Of a DNA stretch of 62,514 bases, positions 4,703-24,045 are shown one piece after another; positions within the stretch are counted from its first letter, which is position 1; each line of letters opens with the position of its first letter. Where the stretch lies: assembly GCA_009843915.1 (NCBI GenBank), contig VYCM01000151.1, forward strand, positions 1-62,514, in the 5' to 3' direction. A model generated the notes under the pieces. The model searched no databases, had not been told where the DNA came from, and worked only from the letters and a program-made list of their open reading frames with translations. The stretch is from Acidimicrobiaceae bacterium. GTDB taxonomy: Bacteria; Actinomycetota; Acidimicrobiia; Acidimicrobiales; Aldehydirespiratoraceae. The position numbers and the translations under genes are program-made.

Positions 4703-5911
4703 GTGCGTTTGTACGACACCGCACGCCGTTCTGTGGTGCCCTTCGAGCCGCCCGCGCCTCCCGAAGAGGTGCGGATCTACGTGTGCGGCATCACCCCGTA
4801 CGACAGCACCCACCTTGGACACGCCAACACCTACCTCGCCTACGACCTGCTGATCCGCCGCCTCGAGGACCTCGGCCACCAGGTGCGGATGGTGCGCAAC
4901 ATCACCGACGTCGACGACTCGATCCTGCCCAAGGCCCGCGAGCTCGGAGTCGACTTCCTGGAGCTGGCCGCGGCCGAGACCGCCCGGTTCCACTGCGACA
5001 TGGAGGCCCTCAACACCCGACCCCCCGCAGCCGAGCCCAAGGCCACCGAGTGGGTGTCGGAGATGATCGCCCTCATCGAGGTCCTCGTGTCCGGGGGCCA
5101 CGCCTACACCGTCGAGGGCACCTCCTGGTTCGACGTCTCCACCTGGCCCGCCTACGGCCGCCTCGGCGGCTACGACACCGCCGCCATGCGGACCCTGGCC
5201 GCCGAGCGGGGAGGCACCCCCGACGATCCCCGCCAGCGCAACCCGCTGGACTTCGTGCTGTGGCAGCCGTCGGCACCCGACGAGCCGACATGGGACTCGC
5301 CGTTCGGCCCGGGCCGCCCCGGCTGGCACATCGAATGCAGTGCCATGTCGATGGGCCTGCTCGGCGCCGGCATCGACCTGCACGGCGGGGGCAGCGACCT
5401 GATCTTCCCCCACCACGAGTGCGAGCTGGCCCAGAGCGAGGCCGCCGCCAACCGCCAGTTCGTGAAGCACTGGATGCACTGCGGGATGGTCGCCTACGAG
5501 GGCACCAAGATGTCGAAGTCGCTGGGCAACCTCGTGTTCGTCAGCGACCTCTGCAAGGAGAGCGACCCGGCCGCGGTGCGTCTCGCGCTGATGGCCCACC
5601 ACTACCGCGACGACTGGGAATGGCACGACGGCGACGTGGACGAGGCCGAGGTCATGCTCGGCTCCCTCAACGAAGCGGCGCGGTGGAAGGGTTCCGCCGG
5701 CGGTGCCGATCCCGCTCCGTTCGCGCAGCGGCTGCGAGACGCGCTCGACGACGACCTCGACGCGCCCCGGGCCCGTGCCGTGCTGGCCGAGATGGCCCGT
5801 GCCGTGCTCGCGGGCCGCCTCGACGACTCCGCACCGGGCCTGCTGGCCGAGCTGTGCGCACTGTGCGGGATCGCCCTGGAGCCAGACCCGCCGTCGCCCG
5901 ACCCGCAGTGA
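4703..5911 (+). CDS. mshC: Mycothiol cysteine ligase (MshC)
   Basis: MshC joins cysteine to GlcN-inositol with ATP, the penultimate step of mycothiol synthesis in the cytoplasm. The 402-residue protein is a short cysteinyl-tRNA synthetase paralogue. Cys28 in Tyr-Val-Cys-Gly-Ile-Thr-Pro-Tyr-Asp-Ser-Thr-His-Leu-Gly-His-Ala gives the zinc ligand and HIGH motif; the Ile-Thr-Pro-Tyr-Asp form is the MshC signature, where CysS has Pro-Thr-Val-Tyr. His-Ile-Glu-Cys and Lys-Met-Ser-Lys-Ser follow. The C-terminal tRNA-binding extension of CysS is missing, as expected. The stop overlaps the GTG of cysS (GTGA), so the two are translated as a unit. Its presence implies the organism makes mycothiol. Confidence 0.93.
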   Translation: MRLYDTARRSVVPFEPPAPPEEVRIYVCGITPYDSTHLGHANTYLAYDLLIRRLEDLGHQVRMVRNITDVDDSILPKARELGVDFLELAAAETARFHCDMEALNTRPPAAEPKATEWVSEMIALIEVLVSGGHAYTVEGTSWFDVSTWPAYGRLGGYDTAAMRTLAAERGGTPDDPRQRNPLDFVLWQPSAPDEPTWDSPFGPGRPGWHIECSAMSMGLLGAGIDLHGGGSDLIFPHHECELAQSEAAANRQFVKHWMHCGMVAYEGTKMSKSLGNLVFVSDLCKESDPAAVRLALMAHHYRDDWEWHDGDVDEAEVMLGSLNEAARWKGSAGGADPAPFAQRLRDALDDDLDAPRARAVLAEMARAVLAGRLDDSAPGLLAELCALCGIALEPDPPSPDPQ

Positions 5912-7305
5912 TCTCGCTGTACGACACCCTCACGGGCGAGGTTCGCCCCCTGACGCTTCGTGAGGAGGGCAAGGTGGCGCTGTACGCCTGCGGCCCGACC
6001 GTCTACGACCACCCCCACCTCGGTCACGCCCGCTCGGCCCTCACCTACGACGTGCTGCGCCGCTACCTGGAGTGGCGGGGCCTCGACGTGCGCCATGTGG
6101 CCAACATCACCGACATCGACGACAACATCATCAACCGGGCCCGCGACGAGGGCAGCACCGAGAGCGAGGTGGCCTTCGAGTGGGAGGCCGTCTACATCGA
6201 CGCCATGGCCGCGCTCGGAGTGCTCGACCCCCACGATCGGCCCCGAGCCACCGAATGGGTCACCGAGATGGTCGATTTCGTCGCTCGGATCATGGACGCC
6301 GGGGTGGCCTACACGACTCCCACGGGCGTGTACCTGCGGGTGCGGGACGTGCCCGGTTACGGCGACCTGGTGCACCGCGACCTCGACGACCTGCGGGCCT
6401 CGGCCGGGGCCAGGGTGGAGGTGGACGAGGCCAAGGAGGATCCCCTCGACTTCGCGCTGTGGAAGGCGGCCAAGCCCGACGAGCCGTCGTGGCCGTCGCC
6501 GTGGGGGCCGGGACGGCCGGGCTGGCACATCGAGTGCGTGGCCATGAGCCTCGGCATCCTCGGAGACGGCTTCGACATCCACGGCGGCGGCAACGACCTG
6601 GTGTTCCCCCACCACACCAACGAGCGGGCCGAGGCGCTGGCCGTCGGCCGGTCGTTCGCCCGCCACTGGGTGCACAACGCCATGCTCAACATCGAGGGCA
6701 CCAAGATGTCGAAGTCGCTGGGCAACTACCGCACGGTGGTCGAGATGCTCGACGAGCACCCCGACAACGGCCGGGCCTTCCGCCTGCTGGTGCTGCAAAC
6801 CCACTACCGCAAGACCATGGAGGTCAACGCCGAGCTAATGGCCTCGGCCCGGGCCGCCTGCCAGCGCCTCGACGCCCTGGCCCGCCGGGCTGCGGTCCTC
6901 GACCCCCTGTCGGAATCGGGGAGCGAGGGTGAACTGGACGTATCCGCCGTCGACGCCTTTCGGGCAGCCATGGACGACGACCTGGGCACACCCCAAGCCG
7001 TGGCGGTGATCTTCGACACGCTGCGCCGAGCCAACACCGCCTTGGACGCTGGCGCCGACGATGCTGGTGCCCTGGCGGCCACGGTGATCAACCTGGCCGG
7101 TGCGCTGGGAGTGGCGGCTGACGCGGCCGGGCACGGCGCTGACGCCGGTGAAGCCGATGATGCCATCGACGACTTGGTGGCCCGGCGGCAGGCGGCGCGG
7201 GAGGCCAGGGACTGGGCCACGGCCGACGCGCTGCGGGACGAGCTCTCGGCGCTGGGCGTCGTGGTGGAGGACACCCCGGCCGGCCCGATCTGGCATCGGG
7301 CGTGA
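5908..7305 (+). CDS. cysS: Cysteinyl-tRNA synthetase
   Basis: CysS charges tRNA-Cys with cysteine. The 465-residue protein has the zinc cysteine and Gly-Pro-Thr-Val-Tyr-Asp with His-Leu-Gly-His-Ala near residue 28-42. Further on are Trp-His-Ile-Glu-Cys, the zinc-binding Asn-Asp-Leu-Val-Phe-Pro-His-His, Thr-Lys-Met-Ser-Lys-Ser-Leu-Gly-Asn, and a DALR-type helical C-terminal domain that mshC lacks. The same frame is open far upstream, but the GTG at 5908, overlapping the mshC stop, starts the conserved sequence. This is the only CysS in the window and looks complete. Confidence 0.93.
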   Translation: MISLYDTLTGEVRPLTLREEGKVALYACGPTVYDHPHLGHARSALTYDVLRRYLEWRGLDVRHVANITDIDDNIINRARDEGSTESEVAFEWEAVYIDAMAALGVLDPHDRPRATEWVTEMVDFVARIMDAGVAYTTPTGVYLRVRDVPGYGDLVHRDLDDLRASAGARVEVDEAKEDPLDFALWKAAKPDEPSWPSPWGPGRPGWHIECVAMSLGILGDGFDIHGGGNDLVFPHHTNERAEALAVGRSFARHWVHNAMLNIEGTKMSKSLGNYRTVVEMLDEHPDNGRAFRLLVLQTHYRKTMEVNAELMASARAACQRLDALARRAAVLDPLSESGSEGELDVSAVDAFRAAMDDDLGTPQAVAVIFDTLRRANTALDAGADDAGALAATVINLAGALGVAADAAGHGADAGEADDAIDDLVARRQAAREARDWATADALRDELSALGVVVEDTPAGPIWHRA

Positions 7306-19449: not shown

Positions 19450-20061
19450 GTGTCGGTTTTGTCGGCGATACACGCCTCGGCTGCGATTCTGCTGGTGGTG
19501 GCGGGGGTGGCCAAGCTGGCCCGGCCTGCTGACGGGTTCGCCGGCTTGGTCGGCTTTCGGGCGCGCCCCTTCCTTGTCAGGACCCTCGGAGGCGGGGAGG
19601 TTGTGGCCGGTGCCGGCGCGCTCTGGTTGGGCGGCCCTGTTGCCGCGTCGGCGGTGGGGCTGCTGTACGCCGCGTTCGCCCTGGCCGTCTTGCGGGCGTT
19701 GCTGATCGGCGCCGAGTCATGCGGGTGCTTCGGGCGTCTCGATGCGCCGCCGTCGCGAGTTCACGTTCTCGGCAATCTGGCATTGGCGGCGGTGTCGTTC
19801 GTTGCTGCCGGAGCCGATGTCGCTCCGGTACAGACCATCGTGCAGTCGATCAGCGACCGACCCGCGTACGGCGCGGCGCTGGCGCTGGAGATCGTCTTGA
19901 TGGCCGGGCTGGGTCTGGTGGCCTTCACCGCGCTGCCTGAGGCCCTCGGCGCCCGAACCGTCAGAGCGGCCCGGCACGACACCGACACCCTGTTCCGGTC
20001 CGTGCCACCGCTTGCCGCCAAGCCCGGCGAACCGGTGGCCGTGGAGGGAAGGCGCCGGTGA
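19450..20061 (+). CDS. MauE/DoxX-like redox membrane protein
   Basis: The 203-residue protein has about four membrane helices. Cys91-Gly-Cys93-Phe-Gly lies after the third, the pair that defines the MauE family. MauE works with MauD in the folding and disulfide formation of methylamine dehydrogenase light chain, and related proteins carry reducing or oxidising power across the membrane. Its stop overlaps the ATG/GTG of the next gene, which encodes a secreted protein with 24 cysteines, a natural client. The chain ends in a cytoplasmic tail of about 40 residues rich in Arg and Pro. Confidence 0.83.
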   Translation: MSVLSAIHASAAILLVVAGVAKLARPADGFAGLVGFRARPFLVRTLGGGEVVAGAGALWLGGPVAASAVGLLYAAFALAVLRALLIGAESCGCFGRLDAPPSRVHVLGNLALAAVSFVAAGADVAPVQTIVQSISDRPAYGAALALEIVLMAGLGLVAFTALPEALGARTVRAARHDTDTLFRSVPPLAAKPGEPVAVEGRRR

Positions 20062-21233
20062 GCCGCAAGCTGGTCGAACGGGTCTCCCGGGTGGTGGACC
20101 GCCGCGCCGGGCGCCGGGGCTTCCTGCGCAAGTCGGCCATGGCGGCCACGGCCGTCGCAGTTGCTCCCGTCGCCTACGCCATCCGCCCGACCACCGCGGA
20201 GGCGGCCATCATTCTGTGCAAGGGCTGGGAGTGCCGCCCCAGCGCCCTGTGCTGTGACCCCTACAGCGAGTTCTGCTGCAAGCTCACCGGCGAGAACCTG
20301 TGCCCACCCCGGACGATCGTCGCCGGCTGGTGGAAGGTGGACGGCTCGGGATTCTGCGATCTGAACGGCCCGAGCCCGCGCTACTACCTCGACTGCAACT
20401 TCACCTGCGACACTCGCACGGGCTGCCACTGCCGCTCCAACGGGTTCTGCGACAGGGGTTGCACGCCGGCCAGGTGCCAATGCAGCGGTGGATGCGACAC
20501 TCGCAAGTCCGAGTGCACTCGCTTCCGATACGGGCAGTGCAACCAGGACGTGTGCGTGGGCCAACTCATGTGCCGAATCGTCACCTGCGTGCCGCCGTGG
20601 ACGTGGGACCCGGCCTGCGCAACGTCCCCGGTTCTGTACGACCCGGGGACCCGCTGGCACGACCGGCCCTGCCTGCACGAAGGGTTCAACGACGTGCCGC
20701 CCAGGGCCTATTACGCCGACGCGGTCAAGTGGATGGCCGATGAGGGCATCACCACCGGCATGAAGAGCGACCTGTTCGGCCCCGACGAGCTGGTTAACCG
20801 GGCCCAGTTCGCCACCTTCCTGTGGCGTTACGAGGGCCAACCCCAGGTCGAACCCAGCAACAAGTTCAACGACGTGGAGACGAGCGCCTTCTACGCGCGG
20901 GCGGTGGCGTGGATGGTTGAGCAGCGGATCACCACGGGTCGGACCCTGAATCGCTTCGATCCGAACAGCAATGTGTCCCGGGCGGAGTCCATCGTCTTCC
21001 TGCACCGTCTGGCGGGAGAGCCGCAGGGCAGCGCAAGGATCGAATTCTCCGATGTGGGCCCCGACGCCTGGTACCGGGATGCGCTGGCATGGGTCCTCGA
21101 ACACAACATCGATTGGTGGGCGGAGCATTCGACCCTCGACGCGGAGAAGCCTGCCAGCCGGGCCGAGATCGCCGCCCTACTGCACGGTTACGACCTCCGC
21201 CCATCCACCAGCCCGAGTGCGGTGGCGCCGTGA
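20058..21233 (+). CDS. Tat-exported cysteine-rich protein with three SLH repeats (MauA-like N-terminal part)
   Basis: The 391-residue protein has a twin-arginine signal (Arg19-Arg20-Gly-Phe-Leu-Arg, hydrophobic core to about residue 41, cut near Ala50). Residues 54-205 hold 24 cysteines, including two Cys-Cys pairs. Leu-Cys-Pro-Pro then Gly-Trp-Trp (91-92), followed by Tyr-Tyr-Leu-Asp-Cys and Trp181-Thr-Trp183, recall methylamine dehydrogenase light chain, although that subunit has half as many cysteines. Residues from about 210 to 380 form three S-layer-homology repeats (Phe-Asn/Ser-Asp-Val, ...Ala-Val/Leu-x-Trp, ...Arg-Ala-Glu/Gln), which would bind the cell wall. Tat export implies folding, perhaps cofactor loading, before transport. 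Function unknown. It is flanked by mauE- and mauD-like genes. Confidence 0.8.
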   Translation: MSRKLVERVSRVVDRRAGRRGFLRKSAMAATAVAVAPVAYAIRPTTAEAAIILCKGWECRPSALCCDPYSEFCCKLTGENLCPPRTIVAGWWKVDGSGFCDLNGPSPRYYLDCNFTCDTRTGCHCRSNGFCDRGCTPARCQCSGGCDTRKSECTRFRYGQCNQDVCVGQLMCRIVTCVPPWTWDPACATSPVLYDPGTRWHDRPCLHEGFNDVPPRAYYADAVKWMADEGITTGMKSDLFGPDELVNRAQFATFLWRYEGQPQVEPSNKFNDVETSAFYARAVAWMVEQRITTGRTLNRFDPNSNVSRAESIVFLHRLAGEPQGSARIEFSDVGPDAWYRDALAWVLEHNIDWWAEHSTLDAEKPASRAEIAALLHGYDLRPSTSPSAVAP

Positions 21234-22018
21234 CGGTCGTCGTCGTGCTGCTGGCCATCGCGGTGGGCGTGCTCGCCCTGCTCGTGTTCGGGCTGCTCCG
21301 AACCCACGCCGAGATCCTGCGGGCCCTCGACCGCGCCGGCATCAGCCTCGACGACGAGGAGGCCGCGGGATCCTCCACCGGGATCGTGCCGGAGCCGTCG
21401 GAGGTTGGTGCGTCTGCCGAGCCGGCAGGTGCCCGAGACCTCGTCGGGACGGTTCCGGCCGGAGGTCCGACCAAGGTCGCCGTCAGCGGTGTGGCGCACC
21501 TCACCCTGCTCGCGTTCTTGTCGCCGGGGTGCCGTACCTGCAAGCGGTTCTGGGATGCTTTCTCGGACCCGGATCTCGAGTTGCCCGGCGGCGACACCCG
21601 CCTCGTGGTAGTGGGCCAGGATCCGGCCCACGACTCGGAGTCGGCCATGGCGGAACTGGTCCCGCCGGGGGTCAAGGCCGTGCTGTCGTCGGCGGCATGG
21701 GAGGACTACGACGTGCCGGGCTCGCCGTACTTCGTGCTGGTGGACGGCTCCGAGGGCCGGGTAGTGGGTGCTGGCAGCGCGCTGCGCTGGGAGCAGTTGC
21801 AGAACCTGCTCCAGCAGGCCCTGGACGACGCCGGCCTGGCCGACTCCACCGGGCCGCAACCGCCGGGCGCCTCGGCTGGACGCTCGGGCCGCAGCCGGGC
21901 GCAGCGGGCCGATGAGGCGCTGCGGTCCGCGGGCATCGGTCCCGGTCATCCGAGTCTCTACGGCGGGCAGTCGGACTCGAACGGCAGCAACGGCGCCGAC
22001 TCCCGCGCCGAACGATGA
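21230..22018 (+). CDS. MauD-like membrane-anchored thioredoxin-fold protein
   Basis: The 262-residue protein has one N-terminal membrane helix (residues 2-23) and an acidic linker. A thioredoxin/TlpA domain follows with Cys101-Arg-Thr-Cys104 and the cis-proline loop Gly-Ser-Pro-Tyr-Phe, and a disordered Ser/Gly/Arg tail ends the chain. The domain probably faces outside and handles disulfides. MauD-type proteins serve maturation of the cysteine-rich methylamine dehydrogenase light chain. The GTG start overlaps the stop of the cysteine-rich protein gene (GTGA). Confidence 0.83.
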   Translation: MTVVVVLLAIAVGVLALLVFGLLRTHAEILRALDRAGISLDDEEAAGSSTGIVPEPSEVGASAEPAGARDLVGTVPAGGPTKVAVSGVAHLTLLAFLSPGCRTCKRFWDAFSDPDLELPGGDTRLVVVGQDPAHDSESAMAELVPPGVKAVLSSAAWEDYDVPGSPYFVLVDGSEGRVVGAGSALRWEQLQNLLQQALDDAGLADSTGPQPPGASAGRSGRSRAQRADEALRSAGIGPGHPSLYGGQSDSNGSNGADSRAER

Positions 22019-22086
22019 TCGCGGTGCTGGCCATCGGGATGGCGGCGGCTCTAGCCGCTGGAGTCCGGTCGGCCTGGTCGCCTTGA
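22015..22086 (+). CDS. Possible 23-residue hydrophobic peptide
   Basis: An ATG overlapping the MauD-like stop (ATGA) opens a 24-codon frame: a single hydrophobic helix ending in Arg-Ser-Ala-Trp-Ser-Pro. The coupling, the membrane-helix composition and its place inside a membrane-redox operon make it a candidate small protein, but short open frames are easily found by chance in this GC-rich DNA. Confidence 0.25.
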   Translation: MIAVLAIGMAAALAAGVRSAWSP

Positions 22087-22095
22087 GGCGTATCG

Positions 22096-22683
22096 ATGCT
22101 CACCAGCATCAGCCCGCTCGGCGAGCGGGCCCGGGGAAATCGATGGTCGGTGACAGTCCTGTGGCTGGGCCTGGGCGCGGTCTTTGGGGGAACCGCCGTC
22201 GGGGCGGCCCTAGGCGCGCTGGGCCGGATTTCGGTCGCCGGTGTGGACAGCAGTGTCCGGCTCGTGTTGCTGGCCGTTGCCTGCGCCGGCGCCGCGGCCT
22301 GGGACTTGTCGGGTCGACGGCTCCCGGGTCGTCGCCAAGTGAACGAGGACTGGCTGGTCGCGTACCGGTCGTGGGTCTATGGAGCAGGCTTCGGCGTTCA
22401 ACTCGGCGCGGCGGTGGCGACGGTGGTCAACACCGCGCTGGTGCCATTGTTCATGCTGGCTGCCTTGCTGGCCGGCGAGATGACCGCGGGACTGCTGATG
22501 GGCACGGCCTTCGGCGCAGTCCGGGGCGCGAGCTTGGTGCTGGGCCGCCGGGTTCGGACTCCCGACGATCTGCGGCACCTGCACCGCCGTCTCGACCGGC
22601 ACGCCGACCGGGTCCGGCGCATGGGCGCGGGCGTGGCCGTGGCCCTCGCTGGAGCGGCCGCCGCCAGCCTGCTGGCGCTCTAG
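22096..22683 (+). CDS. Multi-pass membrane protein of the MauE-like operon
   Basis: The 195-residue protein has about five or six membrane helices and starts Met-Leu-Thr-Ser-Ile-Ser-Pro-Leu-Gly-Glu-Arg-Arg/Ala-Arg. It contains no cysteine CxxC motif; isolated cysteines do not suggest redox chemistry. I do not recognise a named family. It looks like a conserved partner of actinobacterial MauE-type operons. It could be a transporter or scaffold for the cysteine-rich wall protein system. Confidence 0.65.
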   Translation: MLTSISPLGERARGNRWSVTVLWLGLGAVFGGTAVGAALGALGRISVAGVDSSVRLVLLAVACAGAAAWDLSGRRLPGRRQVNEDWLVAYRSWVYGAGFGVQLGAAVATVVNTALVPLFMLAALLAGEMTAGLLMGTAFGAVRGASLVLGRRVRTPDDLRHLHRRLDRHADRVRRMGAGVAVALAGAAAASLLAL

Positions 22684-22704
22684 CTGCGAGCAGGGCCGGA
22701 TGAC

Positions 22705-23178
22705 GTGAGCAGGCTGGCAGCTCATGGGGTGAGCGTGGATGTGCCTGCGGGCTGGGAAGCCGAGCTGTCGACCCAGCCGGACCCGGCCATGCTCGACTCC
22801 AGCCTGGAGTCCTCGGATGCTTCGCTGGTGGTGGTGCACGCGGCCAACTTCTCGCTGCCTGCCGAGCGGGGTGACTACGGGTCGGGCGCGGTTGAGATCA
22901 TGGACCGCGGCGGCATCTTCGCCGCCCTGATCGAGTTCGACGGCGCCTCGGCCAAGTCGAAACTGTTCGCTCACGAGGGCTTCCCGACCCGCCTCGAACC
23001 GGCCGATTTCGCCCCCGACCAACTGCACCTGTCACTGCCGGGTCAAGCCGGCCTCCAGCAGTTCTTCCACATGGGGTCGCGGGCGTTCTGCCTCTACACG
23101 GTGATCGGGTCGTACTCGATGCGGAACCTGCTGGTGCCGGAACTCAACCGGATGCTGTCGGGTATGAGCATCGGTTGA
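22705..23178 (+). CDS. Small soluble protein of the MauE-like operon, unknown function
   Basis: The 157-residue protein has no signal or membrane helix. It starts with a beta-strand-like Val-Ser-Val-Asp-Val-Pro-Ala-Gly-Trp-Glu, reminiscent of PsbP/LpqN-type folds, and ends with Arg-Ala-Phe-Cys-Leu-Tyr-Thr-Val-Ile-Gly-Ser and a terminal helix. No catalytic motif is visible. It lies 21 bases after the membrane protein gene and is probably the last gene of the operon, since the next gene is convergent. Confidence 0.65.
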   Translation: MSRLAAHGVSVDVPAGWEAELSTQPDPAMLDSSLESSDASLVVVHAANFSLPAERGDYGSGAVEIMDRGGIFAALIEFDGASAKSKLFAHEGFPTRLEPADFAPDQLHLSLPGQAGLQQFFHMGSRAFCLYTVIGSYSMRNLLVPELNRMLSGMSIG

Positions 23179-23199: not shown

Positions 23200-24045
23200 T
23201 CAGAGTGGCTCGCCCTCGTGAAGGACGCCGTACACGTCGGTGCGGCGGTCGGCCCGGGGCTGAATGAGCTCGCTTCGGGCCTGAGCCCTGCGGGCCTCGG
23301 ACAAGTCGACGTCGACAACCTCGAGCTGCTCGCGCACCGTGGACAGAGGCCCGCCGGCCATCCGGCCGTACGGGTCGGACACCACCGACGATCCGAGGAG
23401 CTCGACACCGTCGCCCGCCCCGACCTGTGACGTGCAGGCGATGAACACCTGGCTGAGGTTGGCCTGCACCAGCGCCCCCTCGGCGTGGGCGATCAGCTCG
23501 CCCTCGCGGTACTGGCGCCGGTCGAAGCCGCGCACCCAGGCGGTGGGCACGCAGATCAGATCCGCTCCCCGCAGGGCCAGCACCCGCACCACCTCCACGA
23601 AGCGCAGGTCGTAGCAGATGCACAGCCCGATGGTCCCGTAGTCTGTGTCCACCACGCTCAGGCCGGTGTCGCCGGGGGTGAAGCAGTGCTTCTCGACGTC
23701 GAACAGGTGCAGCTTGCGGTAGTGCGCGACCACGCCTTCAGAGCCGACGGCCACCGCGGTGTTGTAGATGTCGTCGCCCGAGCGCTCGCACAGCCCGCCG
23801 ACCACGAGTCCGCCGTGACGGGCCGCCTCGGCCTGCCAGTCGCCGACCGTCGGGCCGTCCAGAGCCTCGGCCAGCGGTTCGAGCGCCTCGCGGTCGGTGG
23901 TGTACCAAGGCACCGCCATCTCGGGAAGCAGCACGATGTCGGCGCCCTGCTCGAACAGCGAGGCGGCCGCGTCGACGCTGGCCTTCCGGTTGGCCTCGGC
24001 CGCTTCAGGGCGGCTGAGCAGCTGTGCCAGTCCGATGCGGGTCAT
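23200..24045 (-). CDS. Carbon-nitrogen hydrolase (nitrilase superfamily)
   Basis: The 281-residue amidase or nitrilase-like enzyme has the Glu-Lys-Cys catalytic set: Glu in Leu-Leu-Pro-Glu-Met, Lys in Tyr-Arg-Lys-Leu-His-Leu-Phe, and Cys in Cys-Ile-Cys-Tyr-Asp-Leu-Arg-Phe. The Tyr-Asp-Leu-Arg-Phe form is typical of the omega-amidase/Nit2 and carbamoylase-like amidase branch rather than true nitrilases. The start ATG at 24045 follows a short gap after the tRNA on the same strand. Substrate unknown; deaminated glutathione-type or omega-amide compounds are plausible. Confidence 0.87.
   Translation of the reverse strand: MTRIGLAQLLSRPEAAEANRKASVDAAASLFEQGADIVLLPEMAVPWYTTDREALEPLAEALDGPTVGDWQAEAARHGGLVVGGLCERSGDDIYNTAVAVGSEGVVAHYRKLHLFDVEKHCFTPGDTGLSVVDTDYGTIGLCICYDLRFVEVVRVLALRGADLICVPTAWVRGFDRRQYREGELIAHAEGALVQANLSQVFIACTSQVGAGDGVELLGSSVVSDPYGRMAGGPLSTVREQLEVVDVDLSEARRAQARSELIQPRADRRTDVYGVLHEGEPL

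Follow-up and report, generated by a model that had tools for sequence, protein, structure and literature searches.

A predicted selenocysteine-containing membrane protein encoded with MauE- and MauD-like proteins and an exported cysteine-rich client in Actinomycetota

Within a conserved five-gene operon of an Acidimicrobiaceae bacterium we find that an in-frame TGA codon is, on comparative evidence, almost certainly read as selenocysteine. It lies in the gene for a membrane protein, encoded beside MauE- and MauD-like redox proteins and an exported protein rich in cysteine, which we term the client. We consider it probable that the operon serves to produce a disulfide-rich protein for export to the surface, along with a dedicated selenium-dependent folding relay.

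RESULTS

A conserved operon of five genes

The window, i.e. the whole stretch of DNA analysed, comprises 62,514 nucleotides of contig VYCM01000151.1. Within it five open reading frames are read in the same direction, and with the corrected start of the fourth gene (see below) genes 1 to 4 overlap head to tail by 4 nt each. An earlier sequence-only reading had described the five genes, with an overlap of the first three. The features are:

19450-20061, + strand: MauE-family membrane protein with Cys91-Gly-Cys93 (Pfam MauE; Cys pair in 75/75 homologues)
20058-21233, + strand: client, with Tat-type signal (residues ~1-50), Cys-rich module (~49-209) and SLH repeats (from ~210)
20202-20684, + strand: portion of the Cys-rich module of the client common to all homologues (from alignments)
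21230-22018, + strand: MauD-like protein of thioredoxin-like type, anchored in the membrane at its N terminus, with C101xxC104 (CxxC invariant; Pfam below cut-off)
22015-22683, + strand: membrane protein of 222 aa, predicted to contain selenocysteine, with WSPUG motif (TGA, SECIS-like element, Sec machinery)
22084-22086, + strand: TGA codon, predicted selenocysteine 24, within WSP[U]G (63-locus comparison)
22095-22110, + strand: hairpin 1 of the SECIS-like element, GAUGCU....AGCAUC (6/6 pairs in all 55 TGA forms)
22112-22130, + strand: hairpin 2 of the SECIS-like element, with apical loop GGC (compensatory changes)
22705-23178, + strand: small soluble protein, kept with the operon (67/80 loci)

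Across 80 client loci taken from named genome records the gene order is mostly as in the window. The client is accompanied by MauE in 74, by the MauD-like protein in 73, by the membrane protein in 62 and by the small protein in 67, many of the missing neighbours being due to contig ends. The client is found in 65 of the 248 genomes of the order, as is the membrane protein, and 64 genomes have both; the two therefore co-occur in 64 of the 66 genomes with either one. The five genes are found again in other classes of Actinomycetota, with the client at the far end in three loci (L204-L206). Comparison of these sequences leaves us very confident that the operon is conserved. The earlier proposal of an undescribed system, in which MauE/MauD-type redox proteins are paired with a Tat-exported Cys-rich client, was to be checked by a genome survey of gene linkage, and is supported by this conservation. 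As had also been remarked, there is no mau heavy chain among the genes of the operon.

A nitrilase-like gene (window 23200-24045, - strand) flanks the operon, and also flanks a degraded locus in another genome of the same genus (G223), so the site of the operon is syntenic within the genus. At that locus (L176, G223:C9, ~5042-6006) the gene for the selenocysteine membrane protein is intact, the client has been lost and the MauE and MauD-like genes are remnants, as if there had been an internal deletion.

An in-frame TGA codon in the membrane protein gene

The fourth gene had been taken to start at 22096. The open reading frame is real, but the start is not; the true start is the ATG at 22015, upstream of the in-frame TGA. 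This ATG precedes the listed start and, at the end of the CxxC gene, provides the 4 nt overlap with the mauD-like stop. Reading from 22015 gives MIAVLAIGMAAALAAGVRSAWSP, then the TGA, and then in-frame GVSMLTSIS. This is the single conserved Cys/Sec position of the membrane protein in 47 sequences.

If the TGA were an ordinary stop it would end a 23-residue leader peptide, with re-initiation at 22096 to give a shorter membrane protein. An ATG does follow the TGA at a distance of 9 nt, both in the window and in the majority of homologues. Yet the 23 codons 5' of the TGA are conserved in frame among homologues, and those with cysteine translate straight across the position. Of the 63 loci with the motif, 55 have TGA at this position, four have TGC and four have TGT, and none has TAA or TAG. 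Moreover, two downstream hairpins are present with TGA only. Together these observations make ordinary termination highly improbable.

The hairpins have the character of a SECIS element. Hairpin 1 forms all six pairs in each TGA form, compared with three to five in the eight Cys forms. The loop of hairpin 2 lies 33 nt past the UGA, and the apical loop is GGN in relatives. Four pairs of hairpin 2 show compensatory changes, with 36 cells changed on both sides, compared with 12 by shuffling. Both stems are present in 55/55 TGA forms and 0/8 Cys forms. A distant group of the selenocysteine proteins mostly retains the hairpins with pairs swapped (GAUGGU/ACCAUC). Taken alone, the window copy does not have an unusual folding energy (z = -0.7), and the case for the element thus depends on comparison. 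A search of Rfam gave no significant match at the hairpins.

Both a tRNA-Sec (66.9 bits against a gathering score of 47) and SelA (342.7 bits, above cut-off) are encoded in the genome from which the window comes. For SelB the best match is a fragment below cut-off (G000:C83:12164-13321) with one in-frame TAG, which may reflect a frameshift, divergence of SelB or an error in the assembly. Among the 248 genomes of the order, selA is present in 38 of the 41 with the TGA form and in three of the 23 with the Cys form, the form being read for each genome from the stops reported within each match; the Fisher probability of 1.3e-10 is optimistic, because the eight Cys forms in the tree make up one clade and the counts are not independent events. 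The three TGA carriers with no selA match are perhaps incomplete genomes. In total 148 of the 248 genomes have selA; use of selenocysteine is thus common in the order, and other selenoproteins are probably under-annotated.

The exported client

The client has 24 cysteines, all within residues 54-205. It also has a Tat-like signal, and Pfam recognises its SLH repeats (77.4 bits), in agreement with the original description. The Tat model matches it just below cut-off and gives a match at some level for 26 of the 30 homologues. The conserved part comprises the ~207 N-terminal residues, in which ~20 conserved cysteines are spread across ~155 residues, and the module is predicted with confidence by AlphaFold2 (pLDDT 89.7). 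Three motifs singled out earlier, Trp91/92, CPP and YYLDC, are present in conserved columns of 30-63 homologues, and are therefore not there by chance. The Trp91-92 pair is invariant; Trp181 is replaced by Cys in distant clients.

The SLH repeats with which the client ends are genuine, but they are one of several exchangeable tails rather than a defining feature. SLH tails are found on the window client and three others (L010, L011 and L034), while the remaining tails are FG-GAP-like repeats (just below the Pfam cut-off), a GWAIDPD repeat or DUF4214. Some distant clients are tail-less. At L201-L203 the client genes have TGA codons that were considered as possible selenocysteine codons and rejected; these clients lack a tail, and TGA is their natural stop. 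The GWAIDPD repeat is ~100 residues in length (RVRGWAIDPDT..VHVYVDG...HGFD...VCVYAIN), is C-terminal in clients L014-L017 and L019-L024, and has no Pfam match. It is probably an undescribed Ig-like display domain.

Comparison with the methylamine dehydrogenase light chain

The client had been likened to the light chain of methylamine dehydrogenase (MADH), MauA. A faint structural likeness survives, but there is no similarity at the level of profiles. The light-chain profile (PF02975) matches neither the client nor any of its 30 homologues and has no match in the genome, and single-sequence and profile searches of the client in Pfam, NCBIfam and the PDB did not match MauA. Compared profile to profile with ten MauA/AauA sequences, the client gave short matches only, with an hhalign probability of ~3%. 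A Foldseek search with the client model gave no significant match. When the model was compared with 211 chains using VIA-align, all the matches listed with Z ≥ 2 were MADH/AADH light chains (Z = 2.2-2.8, 69-80 residues, 16-20% identity). This exclusivity is suggestive, although such Z values by themselves prove nothing. The client possibly shares the light-chain fold, and we do not conclude that it is MauA.

It had been suggested that the client might carry a cofactor derived from tryptophan. In a low-confidence alignment the first position of tryptophan tryptophylquinone (TTQ) may match the Trp pair of the client. In this same alignment the MauA sequence NDI(I/N)WC falls opposite NQ.VxC of the client, so that the second TTQ tryptophan is probably missing. 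In addition, we find no CCP_MauG in the genome of the window (88% complete) or in nine of ten other carriers, i.e. in 10 of 11. A TTQ-type cofactor on the client is therefore unlikely.

These data bear on the possibility that the client is a MauA-like subunit of quinoprotein type, matured by MauE and MauD to carry a Trp-derived cofactor and serving as a wall-anchored dehydrogenase or electron carrier. The partner genes, the invariant Trp pair and the restriction of the listed structural matches to light chains are consistent with this. Nevertheless we regard it as very unlikely, given the lack of a profile match, the probable second TTQ position without Trp, the change of Trp181 to Cys in distant clients and the carriers lacking MauG. 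There is also a slim chance that the client itself acts at the surface as a redox enzyme, whose new cofactor would be derived from amino acids and built on the Trp91-Trp92 pair; such a client would share the fold of the light chain and be matured via a selenocysteine-dependent transmembrane relay.

The redox partners and the membrane protein

The identity of the MauE-like protein is confirmed by Pfam MauE (PF07291; 37.2 bits, cut-off 27). The MauD-like label is less secure. The CxxC is found in all aligned homologues, and the following Trp and a VP motif are conserved (W108 and P163), but profile support is weak and below cut-off in Pfam, with Thioredoxin_2 below cut-off in three of 25 family members. 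The VP motif looks like a cis-Pro loop. A PDB search with the MauD-like family gave nothing useful, and the small protein has no Pfam or PDB match.

The selenocysteine membrane protein is modelled by AlphaFold2 with a pLDDT of 94.1. The model has no significant match by Foldseek; matches listed by VIA-align are mostly to MFS halves (Z ≤ 7.5), reflecting a common helical arrangement. The protein has no Pfam match, and this includes the DsbD/CcdA model PF02683. It resembles CcdA/DsbD in being a helical membrane protein with SP(C/U) at the end of helix 1 and an adjoining thioredoxin-like protein. The likeness to CcdA is only local (SPC aligned with SPC, E = 0.06), and in contrast to CcdA/DsbD the protein has one conserved Cys/Sec in place of two. 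By the positive-inside rule the selenocysteine would lie near the cytoplasmic side. No DsbD_TM protein was found in the genome of the window at E = 1e-10. This fits a substitute role for the selenocysteine protein, without proving it. Some other carriers do have CcdA-type (DsbD_TM) proteins.

A second client

The genes for distant TGA-form membrane proteins (motif GPUG or SPUG) and for a single Cys form immediately follow a gene for a different Tat-type protein. This second client has exactly 10 cysteines in 10/10 examples (L209-L215, L217, L218 and L220, in the gene upstream of the membrane gene), with the motif CGHTYTTGSCPHP...GGWSRCCGG...DCC...INGD...GYC. MauE and MauD-like genes are often nearby. 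Neither Pfam nor the PDB has a match for it, and no relationship with MauA or with the first client could be detected.

A possible transmembrane relay

We propose a folding relay mainly because both types of locus pair an exported disulfide-rich protein with a selenocysteine membrane protein. That MauE, the MauD-like protein and the selenocysteine protein act together in this way we think somewhat better than an even chance. The client would be exported via Tat, and its cysteines paired outside the membrane. MauE, with its CGC, and the anchored MauD-like protein, with its CxxC, would form and reshuffle the disulfides of the client. MauE has been speculated to aid disulfide formation in the β-subunit of methylamine dehydrogenase (PMC7794033). 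The selenocysteine protein, whose SPUG closes helix 1 and is loosely like the SPC of CcdA, would be a transmembrane thiol-selenol carrier. It would pass electrons across the membrane, thus keeping the MauD-like protein active as an isomerase or reductase. Flow of electrons from cytoplasm to outside is only tentatively proposed, by analogy with CcdA. Where present, the SLH repeats would anchor the folded module to the wall.

Some of our observations count against the relay. The selenocysteine protein does not match the DsbD/CcdA model and has a single conserved Cys/Sec, CcdA-type proteins exist in some carriers, and G223 retains the selenocysteine protein without a client and with remnants of MauE and MauD. 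The lack of a fold assignment and the single redox residue would also be compatible with a role other than disulfide carrier, in which the protein would be selenium-dependent and, as a transporter or by detoxifying peroxide, protect the oxidising chemistry at the surface. We consider this unlikely in view of the tight coupling to the MauE/MauD-like genes and to two kinds of Cys-rich exported client.

Alternatively, the Cys-rich module might bind metal, as a metallothionein-like or metal-trapping surface protein whose thiols are kept reduced by the redox partners. The density of conserved cysteines is consistent with this, and the selenocysteine and CxxC proteins could serve as reductases. However, the cysteines are spread across a confidently predicted folded domain, in a pattern more reminiscent of the disulfide-rich light chain than of short metal-binding repeats, and the cysteines of exported proteins are usually oxidised. 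Metal binding thus seems improbable, and we favor the folding relay.

DISCUSSION

The operon has parallels with the mau cluster of Paracoccus and other methylotrophs, in having a MauE-family protein, a MauD-like protein and a disulfide-rich client exported by a Tat-type signal, and perhaps in the fold of the client. It differs in that MauG is missing in most carriers, the operon has no heavy chain, and the client has neither a profile match nor the probable second TTQ tryptophan. It additionally holds a selenoprotein and a small protein, and its client bears display tails. Another parallel is provided by the decRiPPter candidate clusters of Streptomyces, where, in the available part of the report (PMC7794033), MauE and in one case MauD lie beside a product with at least eight cysteines and with no other mau genes. 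Those products are proposed RiPP precursors, and that part of the report makes no mention of a selenoprotein.

The membrane protein shares with known bacterial selenoprotein families a UGA at a cysteine position, a nearby downstream hairpin, homologues with cysteine and the Sec machinery. Yet it corresponds to none of them in the sources covered. There is no model for the family in NCBIfam or Pfam, it is absent from the 119 families of prokaryotic selenoproteins inventoried in 2026 (PMC13188914), and the available part of the deep-Sep paper (PMC12013277) lists no such family. TsoB (PMC13188914) is set apart by its description as rhodanese/DsbD fusion-like, with two selenocysteines and an NCBIfam model of its own. 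Within the libraries searched, the protein thus represents a new selenoprotein family, in a variation on the theme of MauE/MauD maturation.

These results add a widespread family of membrane selenoproteins in Actinomycetota, whose start would be placed too late by gene finders. The family offers its carriers a reason for retaining selenocysteine, and ties selenium to the folding of proteins outside the cytoplasm. MauE/MauD-type proteins would serve clients besides methylamine dehydrogenase, and their unclear roles therefore become testable with two types of client.
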